From assembly GCA_018398585.1 (NCBI GenBank), contig JAGTTD010000001.1, forward strand, positions 32,067,438-32,131,437: 64,000 nt of DNA, given 5' to 3'. The position numbers were made by a program, and so were the translations under genes. The stretch comes from Simmondsia chinensis (lineage: Eukaryota > Streptophyta > Magnoliopsida > Caryophyllales > Simmondsiaceae). Under the pieces are notes generated by a model. It made no database searches, was not told the origin of the DNA, and worked only from the letters and a program-made list of their open reading frames with translations. Positions 19,174-58,493 of the stretch are shown here, piece after piece; positions within the stretch are counted from its first letter, which is position 1; each line of letters starts with the position of its first letter.

Positions 19174-19550
19174 ATGCCAAGTGGAAGACCCACTGGCACC
19201 CGCACCCGCATCACAGCCGCCACTGCCACCGCCGCCTTTGAGTCATTTCTTCAGGGGTGGCTTGACAGGGAGAAGTGCCTGTTAGAGGAAGTGTCTCCAG
19301 CGACGGGGGGTTGCTCCGAGCAGGAGGCGGTGGCGCATATAGCCAGAGTGCTGGCCCACTTTGAAGAGTACTACGAGCAGAAGTCGCATGCGGTGCACAG
19401 GTACGTGTTCGCGTTCTTTGCACCGCCTTGGTGTAACACCATGGAGTGCGCGTACCTGTGGATCACCGGGTTTAGGCCAGGCGTGTTGGTGCGCCTTGCC
19501 TCCACCGCCGTTGGTGACTTGTCTCTGGCTCAGTCCCAGCAGATTGACAG
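19174..19550 (+). CDS. DOGL: DOG1-like protein, exon 1 (residues 1-126)
   Basis: Encodes the N-terminal half of a DOG1-domain protein (DELAY OF GERMINATION 1 family, plant-specific; members act in seed dormancy, reserve accumulation and ABA signalling). Visible family features are FESFLQGWLDREKCLLEEV, ARVLAHFEEYYEQKS and PPWCNTMECAYLWITGFRPG. There is no bZIP region, so it is DOG1-like rather than a TGA factor. I chose ATG 19174 (MPSGRPTG) over the upstream in-frame 19093 ATG, because the extra 27 residues look like translated leader. The exon ends in AG|GTTTGT at 19550/19551, phase 2. If not spliced there, the frame runs only to a stop at 19612-19614, giving a 146-residue product. GC-rich codon use contrasts with the AT-rich flanks, consistent with a real exon. 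Confidence 0.9.
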
Positions 19551-19614
19551 GTTTGTCCCCCTCTGCTTCCCCCCACTTGGAATAATTTATCATTTTAAAT
19601 TCTTAAAAATATAA

Positions 19615-19864
19615 AATTGGGGTTGTTTTGTACGCAAACTTACTTGTCCAGCATGAAATTTTTTTTTTTTTTAACTTTTCTTAGCTGTATTACTTTAATT
19701 CTTTCAAAGTTTATATTGTATTATTTTAATCTAGGGTGAAATTTGCATCAACATAATATACTTGTATAAGACTAAACTTTGTATATGACTAAACTAGCAT
19801 AGTTCAAGTACAATGACTAAATCCATATAGTGAACAAACTAAAAGACTTATGGTCTAAATGAAC

Positions 19865-19908
<44 letters not shown>

Positions 19909-20875
19909 GTATGTATAATTTATTTATTGATTTATAATGAACAATATTGCATTCTTTATTTTTATAGGGTAGTGAACTTTTGTTATATTTATGAAAAGTA
20001 TTATGATATATGTCTAATTTAAGTACTTTCTTATATATTCTAATATAATAATAAATAATGTTATAATATTTGCTTTAATAGATTAATGAATATTTATTAT
20101 ATTTATTTATATATGCCTAATTTCAGTACTTAATTTGTTCAAAACATTTCAGTACTTAATTGGTATATCAAATATAATAAATAAATTATTTATTTATAAC
20201 ATAGAATAATGAATTAATTTATGAATATAGTATTAAAGTGTTTATTTTTATAGGTTAATTTAATGAACTTCTGCTATATTTATTGGATATAGTTAGATAC
20301 ACCTATACATAGCATTACGTATCATATTTTTCTGAGTGAATTAATGATGAATTTCAATTAAATGGTAATACTTGTTTGTGATGCTACTATACATATTATA
20401 TACAAAGAATTTTTATTTTATAAAAATAATTATTTCTTAATTATTATGATTAAATTATATTAGTCTTTACCATATTTATTGTGTACTTATTGTACTTTAT
20501 TTATATATGTAATTATTTTAATTTATAATATGTAGACTTCAATATCTTTGTTACTGTAAATGCTAGTAGATATTTTTGATGTTATTGGGTATTGAATTTA
20601 TAAGTAAATATGGAAATATATATATATATATATAAGGAGAGGGGGGGGGGGGGGGGTTGAGTATGCCCCAGTTAAGGGTGGGAAAATCTGTCGTGTTTGA
20701 TATGGGGAGTGTCTTAAAAATGGTCAATTTAAAATTTAACTTATTTATTAAATGAGTAAAGAGTTCCTGACTGTTACTCAATTAAAATAATAAACCGGTA
20801 ATCAATGCGTTTCTCAATTATCAAGTTGTAAATATGTCAATCAGACATTTTACGGCTGATGAATAAATATAAAAC
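19615..20875. other. Intron 5' part; no gene seen, AT-rich
   Basis: Low-complexity AT-rich DNA with a (TA)n run at 19868-19902, another at 20617-20634, and a run of 16 G at 20641-20656. No coding or TE signature was recognised. Confidence 0.5.
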
Positions 20876-21196
20876 TATTATAAAATTAGGGATAAATTAT
20901 ACTCAATAGAAAGCGAATAAAAAAATAAATCCGGATATATTTGAAAAAAATAGCAAGTATTTTATATGAGAACTAGAGAACCGAAAAATAATTCACTCAA
21001 TATTATATTATATTTTCTCAATTCTCACAATGCTTCTTTCTCTTTTGACTTGCTTTTGTTTCTTTTTTATTTTTGATGTGTGTTGTTTGCATTGCACCTC
21101 GCTATTTATATACAAAATTCAAGCGATGATGAGGTGGAGCAACTTATAGTTGAAGAAAAATGGATAAATATTATATATACAAATATATATATCATA

Positions 21197-21257
<61 letters not shown>

Positions 21258-21348
21258 CCTTTTACATAATTTCTAATTTTCTAGGATATTTAATAATATC
21301 CAAACTCGACTATAAAATTGTACCGAAAAATATCCAATATCTACAACA
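20876..21348 (-). mobile_element. 3' LTR of copia element B
   Basis: On the minus strand it starts TGTTGTAGATATTGG at 21348 and ends near TTTTATAATA at 20876, where the 5' LTR has TTTTACAACA. It contains a long (AT)n run at 21198-21255. Confidence 0.85.
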
Positions 21349-21499
21349 TTCCCCATTTGGATATTTTCCGATATAACGGGACATAACACTCTTGAAAGTG
21401 TATAATGTCCAAGTTAAATACGCATGCCTCGTTAAAAACCTTGCTGGGGAAAAAACTCAGTGGGAAAAACCATAGCGAAGGGAAAAAGAGTACAGCTCG

Positions 21500-24400
21500 T
21501 ATTTAACTCCCCCTCATGTGAACATATTAGTAAGGGGCGTTTCTGAGTTGACGCACACCAATTTTGTGAACTTACTTCTCAAAAGTTGTTGTTGGCAATG
21601 CTTTTGTGAACAAATATGCTAGGTTCTCACTTGAGCGAACTTGATGAACATCTATTTCACCCATCTTCTTAAGCTCGTGTGTAAAGAAGAACTTTGGTGA
21701 GATATGTTTAGTTCTGTCGCCTTTAATGTATCCACCTTTGATCTGAGCAATACATGCAGCATTATCTTCATATAGTATCGTTGGTTCCCCCTGATTGTTG
21801 GAAGACTGTATTCCTCTTGAACATGTTGAATAAGGGATCTCAGTCATAAGCATTCCCTACTTGCTTCATGAAGTGCAAGTATCTCAGCATGATTTGAAGA
21901 AGTTGTTGCTGTTGTTTGTGTGGTAGATCTCCAAGATATAGCAGCGTCACCATAGGTAAATAAATATCATGTCTGTGAATGGCCTTTATGTGGATCAGAC
22001 AAATATCCAGCATCTGCATATCCAACCAATCTCGGATTTGATTGTCTCTAATAGAATAATCCCATATCAGCTGTACGATGGAGATACCGAAAGATATGTT
22101 TAATTCCGTTCCAATGTCTTCGGGTAGGCGTTGAGCTATGTCTTGCTAATAAGTTAACCGAAAAGACTATATCTGGCCTTGTACAATTAGCATGATACAT
22201 CAGTGCACCTATTGCACTTAGTATGGCACTTCAGGGCCTAGAATTTCTTCGTTATCCTCTCGATGTCGAAAGGGGTCCTTATTCACATCAAGTGATCGGA
22301 CGACCATCAGGGTGCTCAACGGATGTGCCTTATCCATGTAAAAACGTTTAAGTACTTTTTCTGTATAAGTAGATTGATGGACTCAAATTCCACCAGATTA
22401 GTGCTCTATTTGCAGGCCAAGACAATATTTTGTCTTTCCGAGATCTTTCATTTCAAACTCTTTATTTAAATATGCAACAGCTTGTTTAATCGCTTCAGGC
22501 GTTCTCATGATGTTTAAATCATCAACATATATCGCAATGATAGCAAATCAAAAATTTGATTTCTTAACAAAAACACATGGACTAACGGGATTGTTGACAT
22601 ACCCTTCTTCCAAAAGGTACGTACTAAGACGATTGTACCACATTCGCCCTAATTGTTTCAATCCATATAATGATCTTTGTAATTTGATTCAACACAGCTC
22701 TCGAGGTTTTGAATTATATGTTTCTGGCATTTGTGGCCGTTCAGGGACTTTCACATAGATATCATTATCAAGTGATCCATACAGATAAGCCGTTACCACA
22801 TCCATAAGACGCATTTGGAGTCTTTCAGAGACTGTCAAGCTTATTAAAAATCTGAATGTAATTGCGTCCATTACAGGTGAATATGTCTCCTCATAATCAA
22901 TTCCTGGCCTTTGAGAGAATCCTTAAGCTATAAGTCACGCTTTATATCTTATGATTTTGTTCTTTTCATTTCTTTTTCGCACAAATACCCACTTGTCGCC
23001 TACAGGTTTCGTATTTTTAGGCGTTTGGACTACAGGTCCAAAAGCTGTACGTTTCGCAAGTGAGTTTAACTCCGCCTGTATTGCTTCTTTCCATTTTGGC
23101 TGGTCATTTCTTCTTTCACATTCTTGAACAGATTTAGGTTCAAGATCTTCACCTTCTGCGGTCAAATCAGTAGCCACATTATATGCGAACTCTTCATCAA
23201 TACTCATTTTATTTCGATTCCATCGTATGCTCGTAATGGCATAGTTTATCGAGATTTCTTCATTCTCGACATTTTTATCATTTTCACAATTTTCAGGTAC
23301 TTGATACCCTCGAGGATCCATTTCGCTCTCTGTTTCTTTTTCTTAGATTTGCATTTGTACCACTTCAGGGGTTTTCTTTTCAGGAGTTTTAATAGAGGAG
23401 CCAACTTATTTATGTTGCTCTCTTTTCTTTCTTGGACTCTTATCCTTAGAACCAACAGGTTTACCACTCTTCTGGCGTGTAGTAGACGTATTTGCCAATG
23501 TCATAGAAGACTGTTCGTTTGGAATATCAATTCGAACAGGAGCATTCATAGCTGGGACATGTGATGTGGTCACTCTTTTTGTATCAACGAATGCATCTGG
23601 TAATTCATTTGCAATATTCTGCAAATGGATAATCTTCTGGAGTTCCATTTCACATTGATTCGTACGTGGGTCAAAATGTGACAATTTCACGCTTTTCTTG
23701 CTTTAGCTTTTCTCCCTCTAATTCTGGGAACATTGTTTCGTTAAATTTACAATTTGCAAACCGTGCAATAAAAATATCTTAGTCAATGGTTCAAGATATT
23801 TTATAATTGACGGGGATTCAAACCCAACATAAATTCCCAGTCTCTTTTGTGGACCCATCTTTGTGCGCCGGGTTGGAGCAATTGGAACATACACCGCGCA
23901 CCAAAAATTCGTAGATGGGATATATCTGGTTCTTGACCAGACACAAGTTGCAATGGGGAGTATTTATGATAAGTAGCTGGCCTAGCACGAATAAGTGCTG
24001 CAGCATGTAGTATAGCGTGTCCCCATACAGAACTCGGCAGCTTTGTTTTCATGAGCAATGGTCTAGCAATTAGCTGCAAATGTTTAATTAGAGATTCTAC
24101 AAGGCCATTTTGTGTATGCTGGTGAGCCACAGAATGCTCAACTGTAATCCCATTTGACATACAATAGTCATTAAAAGCTTGGGACGTAAATTCTCCTGCA
24201 TTATCAAGCCGGATCCTTTTGATCGTGTAATCCGAAAATTGAGCCCGTAATCGGATTATTTGTGCAAGGAGTCTCGCAAAATGCCACATTGCGAGGAGAT
24301 AATAGGCAAACATGTGAGCAACGGGTTGAGGCGTCTGTTAACACCATAAAATATCGAAATGGTCCACATGATGGAACAATAGGCCCACATGTCTCCCTTT

Positions 24401-25015
24401 ATTCTTTCCAAAAATGTAGGAGATTCAATCCCAATTTTAGTTGGGGATGGCCTAGTATTCATTTTGCCTTGAGCACAAGCGGCACATGAAATCTCATCAG
24501 GTGAAAGAATCTTATGGTTCTTTAATGAGTGCCCATGAGAACTTTCAATGATTTTTCTTATCATCGTTGCACCTGGATGGCCTAGACAATCATGCCACAG
24601 GGTGAACATTTTGTGATCAGTTAACTTCCAGTTAACCATTGTATTTGATTCAATCGGGTTTATATGAGTATAATATAACCCAGAAGAAAGTGCTGACAAT
24701 TTTTCCACTATTTTCTTTCTTCTTGAGGTAAGCGATGTAATTTAAAGATATTCTTTATCATCCTCATTTATTGTCTCAATGTGATAGCCCTTGCGACGAA
24801 TATCTCGAAAACTGATCAAGTTTCTTTGTGATCTGCTGGAAAACAAAGCATCGCTTATGTTTATTTTGTCCCTTCAGGAAACGTAACATGCGCTCTTCCG
24901 GAGCCTTCAACCAAATTTGAAACACCCGATATTGTTTTAACATTTGGTTCAGCTAATCATAGCTGAGAAAAATATATTTTGCTTTTGAGGATAGTGTGTG
25001 TCGTTGCACTGTCTG
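21500..25015 (-). pseudogene. pol: copia pol remnant (element B)
   Basis: From the pol start: protease LADSATTHTI (about 24995), integrase with LWHDCLGHPG, CAACAQGK, the LDNAGEFTSQAF segment and QNGLVES (about 23800-24700), RT with KWVFVRKRNE near 22985 and YVDD at 22518-22529, then RNase H with YEDNAACI, DRTKHISPKF and LFTKALP (21572-21853). The catalytic Glu of integrase (NGLVES) is present. Frames change near 24260, 23700, 22900 and elsewhere, so no full polyprotein can be made. Confidence 0.87.
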
Positions 25016-25249
25016 CTAGACATAGATCTCCATCCTTGTTCAAATCTATGTTTCTATAAAATATATATGTATTAGTGGAACTCCATTTAAAATTACAAAA
25101 TGACTCGAATATAGTAACTTTTGGATTTTATTAATCAAGCCTGGAAATAACCCATTAAGATAATATTAAATTACACACACCAAAGTGATATTATTCTGTT
25201 ACAAGTAAAGCAAACTTTAGTACAAAAACATAACTAAAAGACAAAAACT

Positions 25250-26257
25250 TTAGTCTAGTATAACATTTCTATCGCCTATCAGATTATCAATTCTGCCACT
25301 AGCATCCTCAAAAAAATCAGAAACATCAAGGTGTGTCATATCAAGTAGAGAATGATCTTCAGCGAAATTTGTTTCTGGGAGCTTTTCTTTTCCTTTCAAT
25401 GATGCTTGATATAGCTTCACTAGATGTTCAAGCATACGACAGTTACGTGACCAGTGACCTTTTGTGCCACGATAGTAACAACTTGTTTCAACGTCTTTTG
25501 ATGAATTTTGCTTATAGGTTTTCTCCCCTTTATTTTTCTCTTCATTGTTGCCAGACCTCTTAATTTTTGGTCCATTTTGATTACCTCGTCTACGGCCACG
25601 TCCGTGACCACGACTACGGCCATGGTTATATGTATCATTTTCATGGGATGTAGCATGCACTTCTGGGAATGGCTTTGACCCAGTTGGTCGTGACTGATGA
25701 TTTTTCATTAACAATTCATTGTTTTGTTCAGCAACAAGACGACATGAAATTAACTTTGAGTATTTTTTAAAATTTCACTCTCGATATTGCTGCTGCAGGA
25801 GCATATTCGAGACATGAAAAGTAGAGAACCTTCCCTCTAATATATCCTCCTCAGTAATATTTTTTTTTCCACATAAAGTCAGTCGGGAGGTAATACTAAA
25901 CACTGCAGAGTTATACTCGCTGATAGTTTTAAAATCCTACAACCGCAGTTGAATCCATTCATAGCAAGCTTTGGGGAGGACCACATATTTTTGGTGATCA
26001 AACCTCTCCTTTAAATTAAACCAAAGGATAAGCAGGTCCTTTGCAGTAAGATATTCGGCTTTCAATCCTTCATGGATATGATGCCTGAGAAATATCATTG
26101 CTTTTGCGCGATCGTATAGGGATGCGCTATTACCCTTTTTAATCGTATCTCTGAAATTCATAGCATCAAGGTGAATCTCAACATCAAGGGTCCAAGGCAA
26201 ATAATTTTTGCCACTTATGTCAAGAGCAGTAAACTCAAGCTTTGTTAGATTAGCCAT
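25250..26257 (-). pseudogene. gag: copia gag remnant (element B)
   Basis: Starts MANLTKLEFTALDISGKNYL at 26257, a common plant copia gag start. LKAEYLTAKDLLILWFNLKERF follows. The frame breaks near 25937. The second part holds a damaged zinc knuckle, CYYRGTKGHWSRNC, in which the second Cys is replaced. Confidence 0.85.
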
Positions 26258-26347
26258 TAAAAATTACAAAGGTTAGGGGGGGGGAAAAAAAACTTTCCCT
26301 CAAGCTTATGATAATCCTTAGCTGGCTAGGGACTCGTACTGATAACA

Positions 26348-26572
26348 TGTTGTAAAACTAGGGACAAATTATACTCTATAGGAAGCGAATAAAAAGACAA
26401 ACCCGGATATACTTGAAGAAAAATAGCAAGTATTTTGTATGAGAACTAGAGAACCGAAAAATAATTCTCTCAATATGATATTATATTTTCTCAATTCTCA
26501 CAATGCTTCTTTCTCTTTTTCTCTTGCTTTTGTTTCTTTTTTATTTTTGCTGTGTGTTGTTTGTGCTGCACC
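26348..26572 (-). mobile_element. 5' LTR of copia element B, truncated
   Basis: It matches the 3' LTR from the TGTTGTAAAACTAGGG end as far as about 26572, then diverges into a GCTGCT/ACTAAT microsatellite (26573-26635). The LTR start and any target duplication on this side are lost. Confidence 0.8.
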
Positions 26573-26656
26573 TTCGCGGCGGCTGCTGCTGCTGCTACTA
26601 ATACTAATACTAATAATAATAATCTACTACTCAAATAACCTAACTATATATATAAA

Positions 26657-27699: not shown

Positions 27700-29760
27700 T
27701 CGAACAACAATGAGTTTAGCTACTGGAACAAAAGTATCGTAATAATCAATACCTTCCACTTTAGTGTACCCCCTCTGCAGCCAACCGAGCCTTATAACTC
27801 TCAATAGATGCATCATGCTTGTATCGCCTTCTTCCCCCCGGCAAGTATTCTAAAGTCCATGTCTTATTCTGTTCTAGGGCTTCGATTTCTCTTTTCATTG
27901 CTTCCCTCAAATGTTCACATTGAGGTGCTTGTGAGAATGTCTTTAGCTCATCACAAGAAGTGATGGCTCCAAGGAAAGCCAAGTGAGCAAAAGAAAAATG
28001 TGCATTAGACATAAAATGTGAAAAAGGATATGCTATACCTGAGTTAGGCGAAAGAGCAGAGGCACGACTACGGGCCATAAATGGTGGAACATCACAAATG
28101 TAATTCCGATATTGGGTGGGCATACACCAAACCTCGAGCTCCTCTTCTTGTGCGCTGACCTTCGGAACCCGAGATCCCAATCCATTATTCTCTTGAGGTG
28201 TTTGGTTCTCTGTTACTCTAGTACCCAAGTTGTCATTTAAATCACTATTACCCAGGCTTTCATCTAAAACATCAAAATCATTATTGACGAAAACCACCGG
28301 CTCTATTGCCGGCATTTCCTCCTCCTGCCGAATACCACCATCGTTGGGGTCATCTTTCAACAGCCTTATCTTGGTTGTCAGGGCACCAACGTCGCTGGAC
28401 ATTCCTAGTAGCATGGGCTCTGTCCCAACCAGGCCGCTTGATTGTGAACTCTCACTTATTTCTCAAGATAATAAGGAAAGCAATTTTCACCAAATATGAC
28501 ATCTCGGAAGATAATGATATGCTGATCATTAAGACTGTAAACTGTATACCGCTTTTTACTATGTTGGTAGCCAATAAATGCACAACGGCTGGCCCGGCTT
28601 CCAAATTTGTCCTTAGTGTGATATTTTACTTGAACATAATATAAACTTCCAAATACTTGTAAATGAATTATAACTAGGGGGTTTTCCCAAACAATACTTC
28701 ATACGGACTCCTATTTGAAAAAAATAGGAGTTGGAGTCAAATTTATTAGGTATGTTGTTAGAACACATTTCTCCCAAATTTGATGGAAAGCCCGACTTGG
28801 AATTGAAGAGCGTGCCCAACCTCAACAACTTGTCGGTGTTTTCTCTCCACCACACTGTTTCTTGCAGTGTATCATTAGATGACGTCTGAAATTGAATCCC
28901 ATGTTTGTTGTAGTACTCTAACAAAGGTCTATACCGAAACTCCTATCCATTATCATCCGCACCTGTTTAACCTGCATCCCAAACTAAGTTTTCACCATGT
29001 TACAAAAATACACAAGTAGTTGGTGAGCATGTGATTTCTCGCTCATCAATCATACCCAAGTAGATATACTATGATAATCAACTATAGTTAAAAAAAGTAG
29101 TGCATACAATGAAGGAAGTTGTTCGATAAGGTCCCCAAATATCACAATGTATTAAATCAAAACTTGAACTAGTTATATTAACGGATTTCAAAAAGGTGAG
29201 CGGGTCAATTTGGTCACTCACAATATCCAATTGACTAGGAAAAGACAAACTAGAAAAACCTAAAAGTCTAGAAAACTAAACATGCCCTGACTTCCTGTGG
29301 CACAACATTGCCCCTTTACATGTTCAAGTTTTAATTGCCACTGGAACCTTAGACCAAGGTTCGAAATAATGCAAATCATCTCATTGCCTACCCACTCCAA
29401 TTGGCTTCCTCAAGTTTAGGTCCTATATCACACAAAAATCAGGGAAAAAGATTAACGCACAATTTGTCCTGAGTTAATTGCTCCCTGACATTAAACAACA
29501 ATAGAAAGCCGAAACATCGACAACAATAGTAAAAGGCAACTAAGCTAATAGAGAGAGGTTTCCGATGTGCGAAACTCAAAGACTAGTGTTGTCATGTAAT
29601 CTAACGAGCTTAATACCTATATTGTCACAAACATCACTCGTAACATGTTGTGAAGACGTTATATGATCTGAAGCCCCCACTATCAATGATCCAAATATCA
29701 TTCGAAATAGAAGACTAGCCTGTTAATTCATTAGGAACAAGAACCATCCTCGGGTTACCC
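27700..29760 (-). pseudogene. pol: Copia protease-integrase-RT fragment
   Basis: Minus-strand remnants run from a protease/gag-pre-integrase part (about 29300-29760) through integrase (CDIWGPYRT near 29120; YNKHGIQFQTS and the following DDE region, 28650-28920, the latter heavily mutated) to the RT start. The RT part includes KREIEALEQNKTWTLEYLP (about 27840-27900) and then GIDYYDTFVPVAKL after a frame change near 27760. RT motifs beyond, RNase H and LTRs are absent. The frame 27761-28414 is the longest piece. It is a truncated copia copy. Confidence 0.8.
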
Positions 29761-31716: not shown

Positions 31717-32103
31717 TGTTATGATTCTAGAATATAGGAAGTGATTAGTAGCATAAGTCAATAATGATCTTGTAATGGTTGGTATATGGTGTTGGCGGTT
31801 AGTTTAGTTAGTTGAAGTCAAGGTAGGCAGTTAATTGGTCAATATTGGTGGCTGATGTGTGTATCGGTTAGAGCTAGGTGTCCATGTGCATTGTATCCTT
31901 CTTTAGCCGCCATTAGCATAGCCTAGTATAAGTACTTGAGTCTTGCATTGTAATTCATAACTTTGATGAATGAAATATCTTTTGATATTATTCTCTCTCT
32001 TATCGAGCTCTCTCTCTATTTTCTCATCTCCAATTCACTTCTCTTCTCATCTAAACTCTCATCTATCCTCGGTTATGATTTGAGATTTATTCTCGATCAT
32101 AAC
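31717..32103 (+). mobile_element. 5' LTR of element I
   Basis: It is closely similar to 42469-42835 throughout, including GATGAATGAAATATCTTTTG. The last base is separated from it by the element II insertion. Confidence 0.9.
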
Positions 32104-32592
32104 TGTTAGGAAAATGTCTCAAAATTACTTGGTATTTTAAGAAGAGAAGCCGTGAGGAGGCCGATCGATCGGGGTGGAGCTCGACCGATCAGGAAAGTTA
32201 CGTAAAAGGACTCCTGCAGTGAGCGAGCCGATCGATCGGTGAAGTACCGATGGATCGGGACCCCCTCGATCGATCGGGAAGCGCGTTTTTCCAGCTCTAT
32301 AAATACACACGTAGGGTTACGTCACAATGCATCCAATTCATACGTGAGGTATCCTTCCCCCAGCAGCGCCGCCAAATAAAATTGAGTGTGAGAGAGATAT
32401 TGTAATTCTTCTTTTGATTCAATAATAAAAGCTCCAATCTTCGCCCGTGGTTTTCACCCCTTTCGATTGTAAAGGGGTTTCCACGTAAATCATTGTGTCG
32501 TTTGTTTCTTGTCTATTTTAGTCCATTTATTTCTCAATTTGTCGTGGTATTTGATTCGATTGCATACTGGGAGAATTGTTTATTTCCGCAAA
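32104..32592 (+). mobile_element. 5' LTR of copia element II
   Basis: It carries several GATCGATCGG palindromes between about 32160 and 32275, a TATAAATA box at 32298-32305, and AATAAAAG near 32423. Terminal CAAA replaces the CACA seen in the 3' LTR. Confidence 0.9.
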
Positions 32593-32628
32593 AATTGGTA
32601 TCAGAGCCTGGTTCTTCGAATTGGTAGA

Positions 32629-34768: not shown

Positions 34769-35227
34769 TGTTACAAACCTAAATTCCAAGACTTGAGTTT
34801 AAATTGGCATTTGGGCGGGAAATTCTTTTCGCGGTAAAATCTGTTAAGGCTTGCTGTTGTTCTGTGCTGCTGCGTGACTGGTTGCTGTTGCCTGCTGCTG
34901 TTGCTTGCTGTTTTTGGCGCCAATAATAATAATAATTCAAATATTAATTAGTTAGACTATATTCTAGATTGTTCTTAGTGGCTTGGCTTGCTTAGATTGT
35001 TATAAATAAGTGAAGGATGTAATGGTTCAAGCATTCAATGAAAAGTAATCTGAAATATCAATCTCATTTGAGATTAAACTCTCTTTCTCATCTCCTTTTC
35101 CCTTCTTTCTCTCATCTAACTCTAAACTCTACTTTCTCATCTCAATTTCAATTCTTTCTCATCTCATATTCTCAATCTATCCAAATTATACTTAGTTTAC
35201 GCTTGTGGTTCAAGCCCGAGCGTAACA
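34769..35227 (+). mobile_element. 5' LTR of element III
   Basis: TATAAATA box at 35001-35008. A CT-rich 3' part (TCTCATCTCC repeats) precedes the primer site. A CTGCTG-rich stretch near 34880-34905 is about ten bases longer than in the 3' LTR. Confidence 0.92.
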
Positions 35228-40447: not shown

Positions 40448-40452
40448 ATAAC

Positions 40453-44252: not shown

Positions 44253-44451
44253 TATGAAATAACGATTGAAGCAAAAGAATAATTGTAATTGCTTGATGAA
44301 AAGAGTGAACAATGGTTCCCACTTATAGGGGAGAACAATCAATACAATAAGGAAACAAAATATGAGGTAAATATTGAGATGATCATATCATATCCTAGGG
44401 ATATGATGTAATACCCTAGAGATATGATTATGATATGCTATTCTTCTAATA
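44253..44451 (-). mobile_element. 3' LTR of copia element IV
   Basis: Matches 53318-53517 over its length, including GATCATATCATATCCTAGGG. The terminal CACA of the other copy is CATA here. Confidence 0.88.
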
Positions 44452-47400
44452 CGCCTCCTCAATTTGAACGGGGGGAACCACGTGAAGATTGGCCTTGTGG
44501 TAGAGAAACCGATCAGACAAAAGGCCTTTGGTGAAGATATCGGCTATCTGTTTGGCCGTAGGTGTGTATCGACCATGGAGGTCTCCTTTCAATACTTTCT
44601 CTCGAACATAATGGAAGTCAACATCAACATATTTGGTTTGATCGTTGGACACTGGGTTGGCTGCTAGGTATGAGGCGGAGACATTGTCACAGTAAACTGT
44701 GATGGGGCTGGAGTGACGTATGCCAAGATCTCGCATAAGGTACCTGATCGAATCATTTTCTGCCATAGCCTAAGCAACTACATGGTACTCGGATTTTATG
44801 GTAGACTTAGAGACAGTAGCTTACTTCTTGGCATACCAGGAAATGAGACTGTGACCTAGGAAGAGGACATAACCTGTGGTGGAGCAGCGAGTATCAAGAT
44901 AGCCTCCCTAATCAGCATCAGCAAAGACATAAACAGTATCACATGATCCTAGAAGAATAGAAAGGCCATGATCGAATGTGCTTTTGAGATATCGTAGGAT
45001 GTGCTTCACAACCTACCAATTGTTAGTCCGGGGAACATGCATAAATTGAGAAACAAGGTTAACCGCCTAGGAAATATCAGGCCTAGTTATAGTCAAATAT
45101 TGGAGACCGCCAACTGCATTCCCATACTCTATAGGGTCAGAAAGAAGCTCTCCCTCGGTGAGGGTGAGATGCGTTTGAGAGGGTAAGGGAGTTTTGACGG
45201 GCTCGGCTTCATGCATATTGAAGTGCATGAGGAGATCAATGGTATATTTGTGTTGAGAAAGGAAAAGGCCTTTAGGGTCACGAGTAGCCTCTATACCTAG
45301 AAAGTAATGTAAAGGTCCTAAGTCATTCATCTCAAATTGCAATGACAGGGTGCAAATGAGGTCTTCCAAGGCGCGGGCATGTGTGCCAATCAAGATAATG
45401 TCATCCACATATAGAAGAAGACATATGGTCTCATTTTAGGTGCAACGAAAAAAGAGGGAAGGGTCAGCCTTGCTACAAGTGAAGCGAATGCTAAAGAGAA
45501 AGGAAATGAAGCGTTGAAACCAAGCTCGTGGAGCTTGTTTAAAGCCATACAGGGCTTTCCGTAAGCGGCATATATGATTGGGGACTTTGGGATGTATGAA
45601 ACCCTGTGGTTGTTGCATGTAAACCTCTTCCTGCAAGTAGCCAAGTAAAAATGCATTCTTAACGTCAAGTTGCCTGATGGGCCAGGCATTGGTAACGGTG
45701 AGTGAAAGTATAAAGCGGATGGTGGAGGGTTTGACAACAAGGCTAAAGGTTTCTTTGTAATCAAGCAACGAGACGAGCTTTAAAACAGTCTATTGAACCA
45801 TCTGCTTATACTTTACTTTATACTTCCAAGTGCTGCGTACAACGTTCTTGTTGGGATGGGGGGGAACAAGGTCCCAAGTGTGGTTTTGAAGTAACGCATT
45901 AAATTCATCAGTCATATCTTCTTGCCATTTAGGATTCTTGACAGCTTGTGAGTAGCAAGTGGGCTCTTGAATAACAGTGATTGTGGAAATGGATAGGGGG
46001 TACCTAGGGCAATCAATACCATCTTTGAGGCAAGTTTGCATAGGATGTGTATTAACCGACTTGGGGTGAGCCATGGCTATGTGACGCGGGTCAACATCAC
46101 AGGTGGTTGATTGTTTAGGGTCGTTGTGCTGTGAGTCAAAGCTAGGTGAGGCTAAACAGGGGGATCTGAAGGACCTGGGAGGTTTACCGGGGGTCGGTCA
46201 GCCATGGTGTCAGGCAAGAGGAGAGAGTCATCCGGCAGGACCCGAGGTGGGGCTTTAGTGACCTGAGGTGGGGACACGGGTGGAGCCGCCAGTTGGGATG
46301 GGGGGACCACCATGGGTGGCAGAGTTGGGATGGGGAGGGAGAGAGGGACTAAGCTAAGACTGGTATCCTGGTTTTGAGTAGGCGACTTAATACATAAGGA
46401 AAATAATCAAATTTTACATGACGACTAATATAAAGGCGACCTGAAGTCGGGTTAAAACTGCAAAAACCCTTGTAACGAGCAGCATATCCTAAGAATACAC
46501 TGAGTTTGGAACGAGGAGCAAGTTTGTGCAGAATCCGGGTAGTGAGATTAGGGTAACAAGTGCACTCAAAGATGCGAAACCGCGAGTAATCGGGAGGATT
46601 TTGGAAAAGCTTTTCGAATGGAGACATGTTTTGAAGTAAGGGGGTGGGCAGTCTGTTTATCGTGAAACATGCAGTACAGAAAGAATCATCCTAAAAAGAA
46701 AAGGGTAACTTAGATTGAATAAGTAGCATGTGTGTCATTTCAATGAGATGTTTATGTTTATATTCCGCATCTCCGTTTTGTTGGGGAATGTCGGGACAAG
46801 ACATGCAAAAATGAAAACCAAGTCGTACACACAATGAGTTCATACAGCGATGGTCAAACTCACCAACCCCATCGCTTTGGAAGATCTTTATTTTGGCATT
46901 GAATTGGTTTTGTATAAGCTTGTTAAAGTTTTCAAAAAGTTCAAGCACAATTGATTTTTATTGCATTGGAAAAATCCATGTATAACGCTTAAAGTCATCG
47001 ACAAAAATAATGTAGTACTTATGTTGCGACGTAGAGTAAATCAAGGATTGCCATGCATCGGAATGAATTAAATGAAATGGCGCATTTGTATTATGAATTG
47101 CTTGTTCAAAAGGTAAATGTTGAGACTTGCCTAAGCAACATACTTGACAGACATTAGTAAATTTATTGCTGGGAATTAAATTGCAAGTACATACAATCCG
47201 AAGAACATTACTTCCTAAGTGACCTAGGCGGTTGTGCTAGAGTTGACCGTTGTGGGCTTGAGCAATAAGACCAGCTTCAGTGGGCGAGAAGCTATATAAA
47301 GGGCCGTTATTGGGTATCCAGAGGAAGAGTGTCCCCGTAGCCTTGTCCTTAATAGAACAAGAGTGAGAGTTAAATTTCACAACACAATTATTGTCTTGAC

Positions 47401-47970
47401 ATAGCCGTTTAATAGAAAGTAGGTTACGCACGAGTTGAGGAACAAGTAAAACATCTTTAAGAGCTAACATGCCATGTTTAGTGGGGAGGGGGGATGATCC
47501 AATCTAGGTTATAGGAAGTAAAGCGCCATTACCAATAAGAATGCGTTTATAGCCATTGTAGGGAGAGAGGTTGCAAATGATACCTGGGTTGGGCATTATG
47601 TTGTTTGATGCGCTTAAGTCGGGGTACCATTTGAATTCACAGGGCTTCGAAATAGACATGGCCGCAAATGAAAGAAAAGGGTTTGGTTAGGCTTGTTGGT
47701 TATAACGGTGATAGCAGGAGAGAAAGTTGTGACCCCGTTGTCCTTAAATCTGACAGTGTAAAGGGGAGGATCAAGGATGCCATTGGAGTTGGATGAAGGA
47801 GGAGCAATAGTCCCATTAGAGAAGGGAGGCAGTGGCAGTGCACCATACTAAGTAGGACCAAGTGGATACCGCGACGATTGACCCTGACCTCCTTGTCGAC
47901 CCCCACGGCCACCACGACGGTTGTTAGGACATCCTTTGTTACTGCAACCGCGACCCCAACCATGGTGTTG
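44446..47970 (-). pseudogene. pol: copia pol remnant (element IV)
   Basis: Minus-strand pieces in copia order: gag-pre-integrase with LVRNLLSIKRLC (about 47420), integrase with FQSDGVGEF and PQQNGDAEYKHKH (46691-46948) and FLGYAARYKGF (46349-46627), RT with TWKYKVKYK, QLDVKNAFLLGYLQEEVY, YGFKQAPRAWF and YVDD (45400-45411), and RNase H with YCDNVSASYL, YVDVDFHYVRE and IADIFTKGL (44446-44766). Several stops and frameshifts separate them. The frame's end overlaps the purine tract, as is normal for copia. Confidence 0.88.
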
Positions 47971-47974
47971 TCCT

Positions 47975-48577
47975 CCAGTACCTAAGATGGGTGTACACTG
48001 TATCTATTGAGGGCGGCTTCCTCATTGAAGGGGGTTGTTTTGAGTTCTTCAGAACCAATATTTTGAGAAGATTGGCGCATAAAAGTAGCAAAGGCAACAT
48101 AATCGGCGGGAAGCCTGAAGAGGGCATGATGTATCAGTTCTCTATTTGAAATAGGAGAGTCAATGGCTGCGAGGTCATCAGTTATATTTTTGAGTTCACT
48201 TAGGTAAACATCCATTGTTGCTATCTTTCTTGTGGTTGTGGAGTTGAGTGCGAAGGTCAAACTCCTTGGCCATCGAATGATACCTCAAATGTTTAGTAAG
48301 GGCATCCCACATCGCTTTGGAGGTGGGTTGACGGATGACATCGTTTATTAGAGGTCGAGACAATGTAGCAGCGATATAGGACTGAAGGCTTTGGTCAATC
48401 CGAACCCACGCTGTGTAGTCAGGGTTTAGGAGGGAGGAACTGTGTAAGGTAGCGGGGGGATAGGGATATGAACCATCTATGAACCCAAATAGTTTATGAG
48501 CCATTAATATCATGTAAAACTATTCTCTCCACACAGGGTAATCAGTGAAGCTTTCAAGTTTAATTGTGACTATATTA
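47975..48577 (-). pseudogene. gag: copia gag, main part (element IV)
   Basis: Minus strand: KLESFTDYPVWRE and HKLFGFIDGSYPYPP, then DQSLQSYIAATLS, a UBN2-type core (AMWDALTKHL) and YLSELKNITDDLAAI. This is the gag type of Ale/Retrofit copia elements. A stop follows VWRE and a frame change occurs near 48200. Its N-terminal part lies beyond element V at 52811-53194. Confidence 0.85.
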
Positions 48578-49236
48578 TGTTGATGTATTTTCAAAATAAG
48601 AGTTGTGAATAAATATTTAAAGTTGGTCCCAAAGGTTATTCCAAATGTTTTCAAGTGTATTGGGATGTGTGTCAACACACAGGGCACGTGCGTCGACACA
48701 CAATCTTGTAAGAACAGTGCTGCAGAGGTGTGTGTCGACACACGGGCATTGCGTTTCGACACAAAAACTTACAAAACGCACAGCGCAGAGCTGGGTGTCG
48801 ACACACAGGTCGGTTTTTTGACTGGTTTTCGCGCGATAACTTCCAGCCTTTGGTGCCTCTTTTTGAGGTGCCTTTTTAGGCGCGTCTTTTCACAATTTCT
48901 TCTATAAATATTCCCCTTGGTCTTTACTTATTGGATAGAGGAAAGTATGAAAATAAAAAAGTGGATTCACTTGTAAGAACTTGATAATTGTTCTTGAAAA
49001 ACTTCATTCTCATTGTCTCTTCTATATCTCCTCATACATACTTTCACTCCGTCATATTAGGTTATCGTTGTATCCCCGAGACTATTTCATAGGCTGAAAT
49101 AAGTCTTAAGGAAAGTGACATCACGCCTCGAAACCTGTAGATCGTTTTTGATACCCGTTACTTTTGGATTGCAAGTGTTTGTTCCAACAATGTTTAGTCA
49201 CTCGGTTCCCGGAATTTTGGGGAGTTTACACCAACA
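48578..49236 (+). mobile_element. 5' LTR of element V
   Basis: It contains four or five GTGTGTCGACACAC-type palindromes between 48665 and 48810 and a probable TATA (TATAAATA near 48903). Confidence 0.88.
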
Positions 49237-52145
49237 ATCTTAAGACTTAATATCATGGTTAGGAATGGGTTCTTCACTTTCCTTGTTTTGATGGCGAACA
49301 ACGTGAGATTGGAGAAAATGATGAGTGGAGAGAATTGGTATGTCTCCTTGGATCTATCATTTATGAATGGCTATGGACCAAGGTATGTCAATTAATTTTT
49401 AAATTATGAAACCATGATGAGAATTTGTGTTTGTGCTTTATTGATGAGGCACATGGTTAATATGCATATGGTTTGATAACATAATTTAAAAGATCATGAT
49501 GGTGGTCAATTTGGGCATATATAAGAATGATAATGAAATGTCTTTATGCCTTTAGAGTTGCATCTAATTAATGGAATCAAGTTATGTGAAATCTCGTACA
49601 TTTAATTCGGGATAAAACCATGAAGTTTATAATGCCTAACGAGTAGTGGTTGATGCATTATAGTTTATGCATGAAAGTATATAAACTTGATTCGAGATAA
49701 AGTTATGAAATCATGTGACTCATGAAATATGATTAAAATGGACGGAAGATAAATAAATCATGAAATCATAAGATTTATGTGAATCGATGTGTATCAATGT
49801 GCGTCCATTGATGAGTATACATATGATATCAAAATAAAATTGAATGGGCATTGTTTTGATGTGGTTTGAATCATGAACCTTTGATCAATTGCTTTTAATT
49901 CACATGAATTTAAATCAATGATGATTTCTATTATGAATCTTTGAGTCAAATGATATTAAATCATGTTAATTTATCAAAACGAAAATCGGAAAACAAGGGC
50001 TACAATATTGCAATGAAAACCGCTAGAATTTCGTATATATTACGGTTCAATATTCCATGAATTTAATTAACTAATTACATGTGATGTGGGTATATTATAT
50101 TCAAATTGAAGTTCATGTTTAAGGATGAAAGAAAGTGTATTAAAGCACTTCGAAGTGATGATTAATGATCTCATTAATGACCACCTATAACTCTTTTATC
50201 ACGCTTCATGATTAATGTGGTTGAAGTGAAGCTTACTTGTGTTTAAAAGCATATGTATATTATGATTGAGTAGTCGGTTAAATGAAGTGCACTTATACGA
50301 CGAATATTAAGTACTCGAAATGAGTGATAGTTACATGCTATTGTTGCTGTGTGATGTTGCATTCACATGTTAGGATGTTATTAGTCATCAAAATAAGAAA
50401 ATTAAAGAGTATGAAGATACTGAATAATGATGACTCTTATATTACCCATAAGGTTTTATGCACATAGATGGCATGTGGAGTCGTTTGACTGATTTATGGG
50501 TGGAATGAACATCCTAAGATATATATGTACATGAGTACATAGAATCTGACTTTGAGTCTTTCATTGATTTGGGATGAGGCACTGTAATAATGTGAAGTAA
50601 AATACATTACGATGAAAATCATGTTTGAGGGTGTATCCCTAGAAAGACTCTAGAACTTTGAAAGAGTAAAAGAGTATGAAAAGGAGAGTCCCAACGATTG
50701 GACTTGTCAATTTCTAGAGGAATGAACTAGAAATGATATGAATGTCATAGTTCAATGTTGTTGTGTCATAGATTGTGATACTATGATAAGACTTTGTAGT
50801 CTGTTGATGTTGCCTTTTGAAAGAGGTAGTTAATGAATCCGGAAAATGCATATGGCACGTTTAATAAGTCAGGGGCTCATTGTATGTATGTGTGCTTGTT
50901 ACATGTTGAAATTTGGTGTAGAAAATTAACACCTAATGAAAATGCTCCATTAGAAGAATTGGACTTTGTAAAGGTTGAATATAGCCTTTGTTGTCAGATA
51001 GCTGAGTATGAATAACTAGCTATGTAAATAAGAGTAATTGACATATAATACATGAAGTATTGGAATGACCATAAATTATGGTGTTAATATTAATAAGTGC
51101 TCTTCTATATAGAAGAATACTGGGATGCCAGTTGAATACTCGATAAGGAGGACTACGCTTCTAAAGCTTGTTAATGCGTTGAAGTGGTGGGGGTGTTGTT
51201 CCATGAATTTCAAGAAACTAACCTGTGTTATAAATTCCACTGTGGTTATAGAGTTTATTGCTCGGGATTCTACTTGTAAAGAAACATAATGATTAAAGGA
51301 TCTGGTGTTTTAGATTCCTTTGTGGCGCAAGCCAATATTGATTATCACTGTCCATTGTGATAGTAAGATGTGTTTTCAAATGTATAAGAGCAAGATGTGT
51401 CGTTGAAAGTTCGGACACCATAGTGTCAAACATTGTTGAGTGAAATAAATTGAGTGATCACTGTGGACATTGAACGTGTAAGTCTGAGACTAGCGAATCT
51501 CATTTTTGAGAACATTGCTAGAGACTTAAGAATTAAAGGAATGGTGTGAAACCTGTCATTTTTAGTCACCCATGGTTGGCCCTCAACTCGACGCCTAGTC
51601 AGACGCTAGGTCTCGGGTTCAATGAGTGAGTTTTATCATCAGTGTGACTGGAAGCACAAAGAATTTTTCCATCCCGTGTGTGGTGCTTGGTTTACTGCGT
51701 CAGAGATTTAAAGGATGAGCGTATACTCTTAATGGACCCGGCTTTTATAATATTGTAACTGAATGTCGTGTCGCAGGACATGATCAGTTGGGGTCCACCT
51801 TAGTGAGTGTGAAGCTTGGCCGCTTCAAGGGGTGATTTTTGACAAAGGGTTTGGCCCTGATACACTCGCGAAGGGTACAGGACACACGGCGTCATATGTG
51901 TCGATCTGGGAGGTGTAGGGTATGTACGGGGAGTAGATTGCCTAGTGCGTGGTGATGTATTCAGTTAGTCAAATGGGTTGAGTGGTTTAAAGTGTAGTCT
52001 ACCATTTTCGATCCGATTAATTGTAAACATGTCATCACTAGCTGGGGGTTCAATCGATAGACACCTTCATTGATGCGCGACATGGCCTCCTTTAATTTAG
52101 AGACATATTTGTGAGAATGATTGTATTTTGAAAATGGTGGGGGAA
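49237..52145 (+). other. Interior of element V; no protein recognised
   Basis: AT-rich with short frames only. The longest, 50833-51015 (60 residues, MNPENAYGTFNKSGAHCMYV), has no known domain. GC content rises after about 51550. Confidence 0.6.
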
Positions 52146-52805
52146 TGTTGATGTATTTTCAAAATAAGAGTTGTGAATAAATATTTAAAGTTGGTCCCAA
52201 AGGTTATTCCAAATGTTTTCAAGTGTATTGGGATGTGTGTCAACACACAGGGCATGTGTGTCGACACACAATCTTGTAAGAACAGTGCTGCAAAGGTGTG
52301 TGTCGACACACAAACTTACAGAACGCACGGCGCAGAGCTGTGTGTCGACACACAACACCTGTGTGTCGACACCCAGGTCGGTTTTTTGACTGGTTTTTGC
52401 GCGATAACTTCCAGACTTTGGTGCCTCTTTTTGGGGTGCCTTTTTGGGACGTGTCTTTTCACTATTTCTTCTATAAATATTCCCCTTGGTCTTTACTTAT
52501 TGGATAGAGGAAAGTATGAAAATAAAAAAGTGGATTCACTTGTAAGAACTTGATAATTGTTCTTGAAAAACTGCATTCTCATTTTCTCTTCTATATCTCC
52601 TCATACATACTTTCACTCCGTCATATTAGGTTATCGTTGTATCCCCGAGACTATTTCATAGGCTGAAATAAGTCTTAAGGAAAGTGACATCACGCCTCGA
52701 AACCTGTAGATCGTTTTTGATACCCGTTACTTGTGAATTGCAAGTGTTTGTTCCAACAATGTTTAGTCACCCGGTTCCCGGAATTTTGGGAAGTTTACAC
52801 CAACA
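52146..52805 (+). mobile_element. 3' LTR of element V
   Basis: Nearly identical to the 5' LTR outside the palindrome cluster (52228-52378), where the number and form of GTGTGTCGACACAC units differ. Confidence 0.88.
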
Positions 52806-52810
52806 TATTA

Positions 52811-53194
52811 GTAATATTGGACAAGGGGAGAAGTATGGAATTGGGTTTGATGTCATAGTTGTGGGATTAAGGGACCCAAAGGAGGGTGTGTAAGGGCCGC
52901 CGCCGACAAGCTCGGTACCAACGCTTGGGACTGACGCGGTGGAGTAGGGGTAGGGGGAGCGGGAAGTGACATACCGGTTGTCAACAACCCACAGAGGGAG
53001 GGGAAAGAGGAGGAGATCCCGACATGAATGGGGTCGGTCCCCACCCCTGGGAGGAAGGTCACCGATTGAGCCGGTGAAAGGTTGACCCGAGGAGTGGCGA
53101 CATCGACTGATCGTCGGTTTGCGGTGCCGGCAAGTGATTGGGGGGGGGGGGGGGGAGGGTGGCTATGGCTAGGGTTAGGGTTTTGCGCAGCCAT
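52811..53194 (-). pseudogene. gag: copia gag N-terminal part (element IV)
   Basis: ATG at 53194 on the minus strand opens MAAQNPNPSHSHPPPPPPQS, a Pro-rich start about 110 bases after the primer site. A stop lies at 52853. The frame should continue into 48577 once element V is set aside. A run of 16 G (53140-53155) falls inside. Confidence 0.7.
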
Positions 53195-53317
53195 GACAAT
53201 TAAATAAATTTAAAAGAATAAAAGTAAAAAAAAAAAAATTCATAAAAGAATTTAGAATAGAGAACTGATACCAACACTGAGAGAAGGAGAAGGAGAATTA
53301 CAACCACTCTGGTACCA

Positions 53318-53517
53318 TGTGAAATAAGAATTGAAGCAAAAGAATAATTTTAATTGCTTGATGAAAAGAGTGAATAATGATCCCCATTTATAGAGGAGAA
53401 CAATCAATACAATAAGGGGAAAAAAAATGAGGTAAATATTGAGATGATCATATCATATCCTAGGGATATGATGTAATATCCCAGAGATATGATTATGATA
53501 TGCTATTCCTCTTAATA
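53318..53517 (-). mobile_element. 5' LTR of copia element IV
   Basis: Adjacent to the primer site; its outer end reads TATTAAGAGGAATAGC (minus) before the AGCGA duplication. Confidence 0.88.
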
Positions 53518-53522: not shown

Positions 53523-54265
53523 ATTGGGAAGAAGCTTGGCCTTAGTTTTGAGCGGCTTGAATATGAAATCATTAACCACCTGAGGGACATTTTAGCAGAA
53601 GGGAATATTCAGCCAACAAAAAGTTTTTCTAAAAGAAGAAGAGTGGGACTAATTACCATAAGTAGACACTCTGCTGTTGGTGAGCACTCGAATCCTAATT
53701 CTAATTTTTTTCAATGTTGAGCTTTTGTACCTAGAATATGTGGGGTATTTGGGGAAAAGAAAAAGGCATTGCAATTAGGAATTTAATTGTGAGTGTTGGG
53801 TTTGGTCGAGACTAAACGCTCTTCAATCGAGCACGATAATTATGGAATTATGGGGACGGGCGAAAGTAGAAATGGTTTGAATTTGGAGCAGTAGGAGGAT
53901 CAAGGAGCTTGTTGTTATCCTGGGGAGGGAATGAATTCCAAGCCTTAAATTCCATGAATTCTTATAGGTGGATATGTGGTTCCAAGTTATTGGTACGTGG
54001 GATGTTTTGTCTCGGAGATGGACTCTGATCTAGGGAAGAAGCTGCTTACCTCGAGATGGCCCCTTGGTTGATAAAATTCCTTAGTATCATTAATTTGATT
54101 TTCCCGAACCCTGACAATAGAAACATAATGATGTGGTGTTCTGATACGAGTTAGGTGTATTAAGTCATTAGTCAGCGAGGTTTGGAGTAAGCAGATCCCG
54201 CAGGTCCCTGTAGACAATGTAGTTTTTGCTGTTTGGAAGGGGCTTAAACCCCAAACACCCCCCCC

Positions 54266-54296
<31 letters not shown>

Positions 54297-54760
54297 CCCC
54301 CAAAAAAAAAAAAAAAACCAAAAAAAAAGGGTTGAAATCCTTGTTTGGCTTGCCCTTTTGGAAAGATTAATTACTAAAGCCCGGCTCCTCAAATTGGGTA
54401 TCCTTGACAGTAGGAGCATCAATTGTGCCCTTTGCGGGGAGGCTCCTGAAGATGTAGATCACCTACGAGTTGGATGTTGGTTGAGTTGGAATTTGTGGTA
54501 TCTGATGGTGAGATGGTGGGGCTTCCAGTCAGTGCTATCAGGATCAATTAGAGACTTGTTTGATTAGCATACTGCATTTTACATTAGGGAAAGTTTTAGA
54601 AAGAGATGTGGATGTTCACTTCTCTATTGTTATTTGGGTAATTTGGAACAAGAAGAACAAGACTGTTTTTGAAAATGAAAGTTGGGTGGAGGATGAGGTT
54701 TTCTGAAGCACATGAATGAGAGTGGGATTTTGGATAATCTGATAGTGTCATGAATTCACT
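53523..54760 (+). pseudogene. LINE remnant: endonuclease-like start and zf-RVT region
   Basis: A piece near 53730-53870 resembles the start of LINE ORF2 endonuclease (the KKKALQLGI / VETKRSS region, with frame changes). The part from about 54130 onward is zf-RVT: VWSKQIPQVPVDNVVFAVWKGL, then, after a C/A homopolymer block, RVEILVWLALLERL, CALCGEAPEDVDHL and WWGFQSVLSGSIRDLF. RT between them is missing, so internal deletion or two fragments are possible. A stop follows at 54565-54567. Confidence 0.7.
54258..54328 (+). repeat. C-run then A-run inside the LINE zf-RVT region
   Basis: About 40 C with few interruptions (54258-54301) followed by two A runs (54302-54328). It splits an otherwise readable domain and may be an assembly or sequencing artefact, or an expanded homopolymer. 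Confidence 0.8.
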
Positions 54761-56468: not shown

Positions 56469-56473
56469 GACTG

Positions 56474-56925
56474 TGATGCAGCACGTGAAATGGGGAAATA
56501 GGGATATGGAAAGGTTTAACGGCTTTTCCTTTGAATTTTATTAAAATGACAACAAAATTACAAAGAAGATAGATAGATTCGACTTCTCACAGGTCGAGAA
56601 ATGAAGAAAAGAAGTCTAAAAATTATGTCAAAATTAGTTTAAGCATAGCCTAGTCTTCCCCTTTATATAGAGGAGGTGACAAAAGAAAAGAGTTTAAATT
56701 TAAATTCAAAATGTGTAACAAATAAGGAAAGAGATAAAGTTAAATCGGAAATGAATCGAAACTGCTAAAACCGTCCCTAGAATCTCGGCTGGAATCTCGG
56801 TTGCAATCACGCCTCGCGCCAGCTCTGCGTTGAGCCCCTCGACCCCGCCATGGTACCCTCTGCGCCATGCCAACACCTCCGCTTGGCGCTAATTCTAGGT
56901 TGCTGCACTAAGCTTCATGCCTTCT
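56474..56925 (-). mobile_element. Left LTR (inverted) of the gypsy derivative
   Basis: Its reverse complement matches 57679-58130, for example at CCTCTATATAAAGGGGAAGA and CGCCATGGTACCCTCTGCGC read in opposite senses. The TATA box points left. Confidence 0.85.
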
Positions 56926-56934
56926 ACCTTCAAA

Positions 56935-57270
56935 ATTAGAACCCTAATCATCCTTCAAAATGGAGATCAAGCCATGGGCTCTCTACTTTGAAGAAAATCA
57001 CTTAATTGAAATCAGGCTTCACGTCCTCCTTTAAGTTTCCAAGTTTCAAAACTCAAATCATTCTTCAAGAAGGAGATCAAGCCCATGAGCCCTCTACTTT
57101 GAAGAGAATCACTTGATTGAGATTAAGCTTCATGCCTTCCTTCGGGTTTTGAAGTTATAAAGGCCAAATCATTCTTGAAGATGGAGTTCAAGCCATGAGC
57201 CCTCTACTTTGAAGAAGTCACTTGATTGAGATCAAGTTTCGTGCCCTCTTTCAAGTTTCCAAGTCCAAGC
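56935..57270 (+). repeat. Tandem repeat, about 110 bp x 3
   Basis: Units containing GGAGATCAAGCCATGAGC, CCCTCTACTTTGAAG and a TCAAGTTTCCAAG-like end start near 56962, 57072 and 57183. They lie between the two inverted LTRs. Confidence 0.85.
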
Positions 57271-57439
57271 CACCAACAAAGCACTCATCAAGTCTCGTAG
57301 AGATCGAATCAGAGGATTTTCGTATATTTGTAATTAGTATACGTGTATTAAGATTGTACCCGTATTTTCTTAAGAAATACCAATCATTATATTTGTGCAA
57401 CATCTATTTCGTCCATTTATCTTGTTTGAATTTTGTGCT

Positions 57440-57695
57440 CTACAAATTTGGCGACAAAGTGTGGGCCATCTTGACACGCGAAAGGTTTCCAGCTTGGGAA
57501 TATAACAAGCTCACAGCTCGCAAGATCGATCCACTAGCGGTTCTGGAGAAAATCAATGACAACGCCTACCGTCTTCAACTTCCACCAAGTATGAGGACTT
57601 CCGATGTCTCAACTTTAAGCACCTCACTCCTTGTTTTTGCAACAAATTCGAGGGCGAATTCTCCCCAACTCGAGGAGGACGATGCAGCCGCCTAG
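57440..57695 (+). pseudogene. pol: Gypsy integrase C-terminal end
   Basis: The frame reads FGDKVWAILTRERFP, YNKLTARKIDPLAVLEKIN, NAYRLQLPP and MRTSDVSTL, then ends QLEEDDAAA just inside the right LTR. This is the C-terminal segment of plant chromovirus-type gypsy integrase (NVFNVKHL pattern, here degraded). Everything upstream in pol is missing. Confidence 0.82.
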
Positions 57696-58130
57696 ACTTG
57701 GCGCCAAGCGGAGGCATTGGCATGGCGCAGAGGGTACCATGGCGGGTTGAGGGGCTCAACGCAGAGCTGGAGTGAGACGTGATTGCAGCCAAGATTCCAG
57801 CCAAGATTTTGGGGACGGTTTTAGCAGTTTCAATTCATTTTATATTTAACTCTATCTCTTTCCTTATTTGTTACACATTTTGAATTCAAAGTTAAACTCT
57901 TTTCTTTTGTCACCTCCTCTATATAAAGGGGAAGACTAGGCTAGGTTTAGGTTAGCTAATTTTGACATAATTTTTAGACGACTTTTCCTCGTTTCTCGAC
58001 CTGTGAGAAATCGAGTCTATCTATCCTATTTGTAATTTTGTTGTCATTTTAATAAAATTCAAAGGGAAGGCTGTTGAACCTTAGGCTGTTGAACCTTTTT
58101 CTCTATTTTCCCATTTCACGCGCTGCATCA
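57679..58130 (+). mobile_element. Right LTR of the gypsy derivative
   Basis: It starts (C)GATGCAGCC, directly overlapping the integrase end, and ends GCTGCATCA. TATATAAA at 57919-57926 points toward exon 2, and AATAAA lies in sense at 58051-58056. It ends 41 bases before exon 2. Confidence 0.85.
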
Positions 58131-58171
58131 GACTGATAAGAGTTATATTTAATATATTTCTTTTCCCTTAG

Positions 58172-58493
58172 GTTGAGAGTGGAGACAAGAATGGAGGAGA
58201 AAGCATTGGAAGACGAATGTGCAAGGATACAGGAGAGTGTAGCAGCACCACCAATTATGCACATAATAAGATCGGGCTGGCAACAAGCTGGGGAACTCGG
58301 GGAGGTGAATGAGGCAATGGAGACCCTAAGGGCAGCGTTGGAGGCAATAGTGGAAAACGCTGACTCCTTGAGGAGGACAACAGCAGCCAAGGTGGTGGAA
58401 ATATTAAGACCGCTTCAAAGCCTAAGGTTCTTAGTTGCCGCAACACGACTACAACACAACATGAGGTCTTGGGGACTTCAAAGAATTGGCTGA
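58172..58493 (+). CDS. DOGL: DOG1-like protein, exon 2 (residues 126-232)
   Basis: Encodes the C-terminal half of the DOG1-like protein. Its first base completes the Arg codon opened by exon 1. The next residues (LRVETRMEEKALEDECARIQES) form the second conserved block of the DOG1 region, directly continuing the exon 1 end LAQSQQIDR. VEILRPLQSLRFLVAATRLQ and the WGLQR end are also typical. The stop TGA is at 58491-58493. Total protein is 232 residues, within the usual DOG1-like size, and nothing is missing at the junction. AATAAA at 58495-58500 is too close to the stop to be the likely poly(A) signal. It has no recognisable start of its own, which argues against an independent gene. Confidence 0.88.

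Follow-up and report, generated by a model that had tools for sequence, protein, structure and literature searches.

A probable two-exon DOG1-like gene of jojoba with a 38.6-kb intron enlarged by nested retrotransposons

The stretch of jojoba (Simmondsia chinensis) DNA analysed here, a window of 64,000 nt, probably carries a functional two-exon DOG1-like gene, one whose exon structure is nearest to that of the DOGL4 group and whose intron has been enlarged by retrotransposons. Joined in phase 2 across GT/AG intron borders, the two exons encode a DOG1-family protein of 232 residues, and the intron between them is about 55 times as long as the coding sequence (Table 1). An initial annotation had placed the halves of this protein 38.6 kb apart, and its borders, coordinates, phase and length are all correct. 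Exon 1 has a GC content of 60% vs 22% in the adjoining 1,325 nt of the intron. Upstream of exon 1 lie an in-frame stop at 18988 and an in-frame ATG at 19093, use of which would extend the protein by 27 residues. Both exons would be carried on one pre-mRNA and spliced at 19550/58172; we infer that this two-exon gene is transcribed and under selection.

Table 1. Features of the locus; positions are counted from the first letter of the window, and distances are K2P values between LTRs or, for the seventh element, between inverted arms.
Feature	Position	Length	Strand	Target duplication	Distance	Description
Exon 1	19174-19550	377 nt	+			Start codon; DOG1 domain PF14144; phase 2 end at AG/GTTTGT
Intron	19551-58171	38,621 nt	+			GT...AG
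Element D	20876-26573		- (antisense)		0.092	Copia LTR retrotransposon; distance over 222 aligned bases
Copia-type fragment	28459-28698		-			SH3_retrovirus Pfam match; no LTRs found
Element A	31717-42835		.	GGATG	0.051	LTR element; holds B and C
Element B	32104-40447		+	ATAAC	0.035	Copia; near the end of the left LTR of A
Element C	34769-38071		+	CACAC	0.018	Ty3-type with gag ORF; nested in B
Element E	44253-53517		- (antisense)	AGCGA	0.086	Copia; holds F
Element F	48578-52805		.	TATTA	0.029	LTR element; nested in E
Non-LTR retrotransposon fragment	54223-54564		+			zf-RVT Pfam match
Seventh element	56474-58130		.	GACTG	0.110	Inverted LTR-like arms
3' splice region	58133-58171		+			Branch-point candidates CTGAT and TTAAT, pyrimidine-rich stretch, CCCTTAG
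Exon 2	58172-58493	322 nt including stop TGA	+			C-terminal half of the DOG1-like protein

Family membership can be established from the joined protein, which matches the Pfam DOG1 profile (PF14144) at 72.2 bits with a curated cut-off of 27. This match spans residues 47-109 and falls wholly in exon 1, which scores 71.7 bits by itself; exon 2 on its own gave no Pfam match and is recognised because TGA factors have a homologous C-terminal half. When compared with solved structures, the joined protein aligns with TGA7 over residues 17-225 at 60.1 bits. The alignment has no gap at the join, as expected from the earlier claim that family sequence reads across it. Homology spans the join, and the joined score is higher than the two separate scores added together (28.8 bits for exon 1; 20.2 bits, with E 0.007, for exon 2). 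On sequence grounds, the two halves are well supported as one DOG1-like gene with a transposon-filled intron. The region homologous to the C-terminal domain of TGA3 and TGA7 is preceded by 16 residues only and, unlike the TGA factors, the protein has no bZIP match: DOG1 was the sole Pfam match in the 232 residues scanned, and a further upstream exon is possible. Heme-binding histidines and binding to AHG1 are described for DOG1 in passages of a paper that also notes the lack of these histidines in DOGL5.2 (PMC5989226). For the jojoba gene, the family name hints at a seed- or ABA-linked role.

Whether the halves belong together can also be judged from the junction itself. Exon 1 was joined to each of 2904 downstream AG sites, and the products were scored with a profile built from two sequences only, TGA7 and TGA3. 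The acceptor at 58172 ranked first of the 2904 with 60.9 bits (median 27.6), ranks 2 to 7 all fell inside exon 2, and 57270 came next at 32.8 bits. Similarly, when 648 donor-acceptor pairs close to the borders were compared, 19550/58172 came out on top, with the runner-up at 56.0 bits. On these rankings, a pair of unrelated fragments was rejected. An assembly artefact, or separate fragments standing in the right order by chance, is highly improbable; homopolymer runs near 20640 and 54258 would suit an artefact, but the halves share strand and order, meet in exact phase at the top-scoring junction of those tried, and have clean nested target-site duplications between them. The window was also searched for another DOG1 partner, and this option was rejected: among 1461 six-frame segments of at least 25 aa, the two exon ORFs were the only DOG1-like ones (next best, E 5.8), in line with the earlier remark that neither half has an alternative partner nearby. 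A known RNA gene was rejected as well, the window giving no Rfam match at the gathering score and no tRNA with ARAGORN (bacterial code), and an upstream promoter scan with a bacterial-type model, which is not applicable to plants, gave 1 match vs 0.9 expected.

Self-comparison and terminus analysis revealed seven elements in the intron, with four at the top level and three nested inside two of these. The top-level insertions account for 27,739 of the 38,621 nt (72%), a figure that includes an approximate right end for element D. With the further retroelement fragments at 28459-28698 and 54223-54564 (Table 1) also in the intron, the roughly 33 kb of nested transposon sequence given by the initial annotation is plausible. 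Perfect 5-bp target duplications flank six of the seven elements. Element D has a seemingly incomplete right LTR, and a duplication was sought at its termini and not found. For E and the seventh element the termini were set by eye, the automatic terminus search having given no candidate for E, and the duplications at these termini were then displayed. Pfam matches point to Copia for B, D and E and to a Ty3-type gag for C; in D, gag_pre-integrs lies above the cut-off and rve, RVT_2 and SH3_retrovirus lie below it. The seventh element carries a Tf2-1-like SH3 domain, as found in Ty3-type integrases. Nine of the 20 intron ORFs scanned had no Pfam match, including the sole ORF tested in element A, and there was none for the ORF at 27764-28462, which adjoins the Copia-type fragment. 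Relative to the gene, B and C lie in sense and D and E in antisense. Subtracting the four defined top-level insertions would leave an ancestral single intron of at most about 10.9 kb.

The insertion closest to exon 2 lies only 41 nt from it, or 36 nt when its duplication is counted. Plant branch points follow the consensus YTNAY, from which two candidates can be predicted in the remaining stretch, CTGAT (branch A at -36) and TTAAT (branch A at -20). The seventh element itself contains one more YTNAY match, at -54. The duplicated GACTG, together with the AT that follows it, restores the candidate CTGAT; by rebuilding this motif, the element's own target duplication kept the 3' splice region whole. 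At the other end of the intron, the donor GTTTGT falls short of the strongest consensus, a point against the two-exon reading.

The LTR distances agree with the nesting, since they decrease from host element to inner element, both from A through B to C and from E to F. Substitution rates of 1.3e-8 per site per year, a grass rate, and 2.5e-9 can be used to convert distances into time. At these rates the three largest distances correspond to 3.3-4.3 Myr and 17-22 Myr, respectively, where the inverted-arm date is an upper bound because the arms may have differed prior to insertion. Successive retroelement insertions may therefore be pictured as having enlarged the intron over some millions of years. 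How long intact exons might persist by chance was simulated under neutral decay for the coding sequence and four splice bases, with two indel ratios and with 80% of indels assumed to shift the frame. On the clocks of the inverted arms, D and E, the exons escape any disabling change with P 0.002-0.04 if they mutate as fast as the LTRs, with P 0.03-0.19 if half as fast and with P 0.12-0.36 if a third as fast. Taking element A as the clock gives P 0.05-0.53 across the rates simulated. Passages of an Arabidopsis study report more mutation in long introns that are methylated (PMC11265718), which makes a slower rate in exons realistic. The intact exons favour function of the gene rather than prove it, and the argument is weaker if exons mutate slower than LTRs.

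The upper ends of these ranges at slower exon rates, for the three largest distances and for the A clock, would suit a gene that was recently disabled. The intron would then be too long or too heterochromatic, transcripts would stop within it, and the exons would be a relic that has yet to decay. A scan of the 1,325 intron nucleotides nearest exon 1 found five sense AATAAA motifs (at 20050, 20176, 20180, 20789 and 20862) that could end transcripts early, and the sense orientation of B and C fits such a loss as well. So does the premature polyadenylation within heterochromatic introns described for rice and Arabidopsis without IBM2, in passages of a paper on the rice homologue, OsIBM2, whose targets are genes that carry such introns (PMC7145194). 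Yet the start, the stop, both reading frames, the splice sites and the branch-point candidates are intact throughout, and the DOG1 match stands at 72 bits. We consider a disabled gene unlikely.

The same AATAAA motifs, from 20050 on, bear on a further reading that overlaps with the functional two-exon gene. Read-through from exon 1 into the intron gives an ORF of 146 aa that stops at 19612, and the locus could yield both the full-length protein and, by read-through and early polyadenylation, a 146-residue short form, in a ratio set by heterochromatin. This reading is modelled on the short form of DOG1 or on the intron sensor of IBM1, and alternative polyadenylation in Arabidopsis DOG1 is described in passages of PMC7238029. 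The LTR pairs differ by C-to-T more often at CG and CHG sites (37 of 556) than at CHH sites (54 of 1457; Fisher p 0.006), a modest test that is consistent with, at most, a footprint of past cytosine methylation and is silent on present methylation. CpG depletion fails to single out the transposons, because it is uneven across segments and is shared by exon 2 (0.44). On the other side, the short form would be without the C-terminal 106 residues, and AATAAA is expected often at 22% GC. We regard dual products as quite unlikely. Carried further, the sole known intron of a dormancy-type regulator could have turned into a heterochromatin-gated switch. Full-length protein would then require transcription across all 38.6 kb of it, and failing that the product would be a truncated DOG1-domain protein of 146 residues; this we hold to be very unlikely.

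For the functional two-exon gene, the closest parallels include genes with intronic heterochromatin: IBM1, RPP7 with COPIA-R7 and, in the passages on rice, the targets of OsIBM2. These coding genes have transposon or repeat-like sequence in an intron, as does the jojoba gene, where the arrangement is known from sequence alone. By analogy, it is a reasonable inference that the jojoba intron may depend on an IBM2/ASI1-EDM2-like pathway. Whether such genes need that pathway when their introns are long and transposon-filled could be tested directly at this locus.

Among known relatives, structures of one or two exons are common for DOG1-like genes in family surveys (PMC7465105, PMC12251688, PMC12481868). 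Arabidopsis DOG1 has three, TGA-like members have up to 12 and AtDOGL4 has two; the soybean paper that reports this also finds exon number inconsistent even inside groups (PMC7465105). In pepper, passages of PMC12251688 describe CaDOGL4-1, -3 and -4 as having two exons and introns much longer than their exons, and CaDOGL4-2, of the same group, as having a considerably shorter intron; this and the inconsistent exon numbers speak against the DOGL4 label. The jojoba gene shares the DOG1 domain and two exons with the DOGL4 group of Arabidopsis and pepper, a likeness by exon number only. Passages of some papers on the family gave no intron position for DOG1-like genes. A narrow literature search, which is no proof of absence, found no paper on an insertion within a DOG1 intron.

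Introns of this length had been called rare in plants by the initial annotation, a claim that holds in some lineages and not in others. The grape study, in the passages at hand, covers 2,697 introns above 3 kb and up to 100 kb, with large introns more than 80% repetitive and LTR retrotransposons as one of their chief repeat classes (PMC3058033). In tea, a few MADS genes have introns of 20-60 kb, a pattern that the passage says is reported in few species only (PMC10458798). Conifer introns are given as reaching 1.49 Mb (PMC10473749). The expansion seen here is therefore of an already known sort: introns as long as this one occur in tea, those studied in grape run up to 100 kb, and conifers have far larger ones. 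The large introns of grape and tea fall in a similar size range and belong to other genes, and those of grape come from ESTs, whereas the present intron is read from genomic letters. The appeal of the locus lies in its clean nested insertion history within a small regulatory-type gene, a datable case in which the coding sequence was kept while the intron grew so far beyond it. Gene predictors tend to split long-intron genes of this kind in two, as the passages of the grape study report (PMC3058033).

The retroelement with LTR-like arms carries these head-to-head, at 89% identity to each other. It has TG/CA termini and is bounded by a perfect 5-bp target-site duplication, GACTG, so that it was apparently inserted as a single unit. 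Within it lie a Tf2-1-like SH3 domain and a tandem array of three copies of a 111-bp unit. The phrase 'inverted LTRs' was absent from the 10 of 695 literature matches that were listed.

Element C of the intron is short and of Ty3 type, its sole scanned ORF being a gag that matches the Ty3_capsid and Retrotrans_gag families; its LTRs are 96% identical, and their distance is the lowest of any LTR pair there. LTR termini are usually TG/CA, and the TA found at both outer ends of element E, a Copia element, is consistent with a C-to-T change.

Features within and around the DOG1-like gene
Feature	Position	Strand
Inverted repeat, left flank	5982-8700	
Element C	34769-38071	+
Element E	44253-53517	antisense
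Inverted-arm retroelement	56474-58130	
Gypsy-type retroelement ORFs	59402-63154	minus

Directly downstream of the gene, the three Gypsy-type ORFs scanned give hits to the families gag, RVT_1 and RT RNase H. In the left flank, self-comparison revealed a 1.2-kb inverted repeat (75% identity), with further, shorter inverted pieces outside it.
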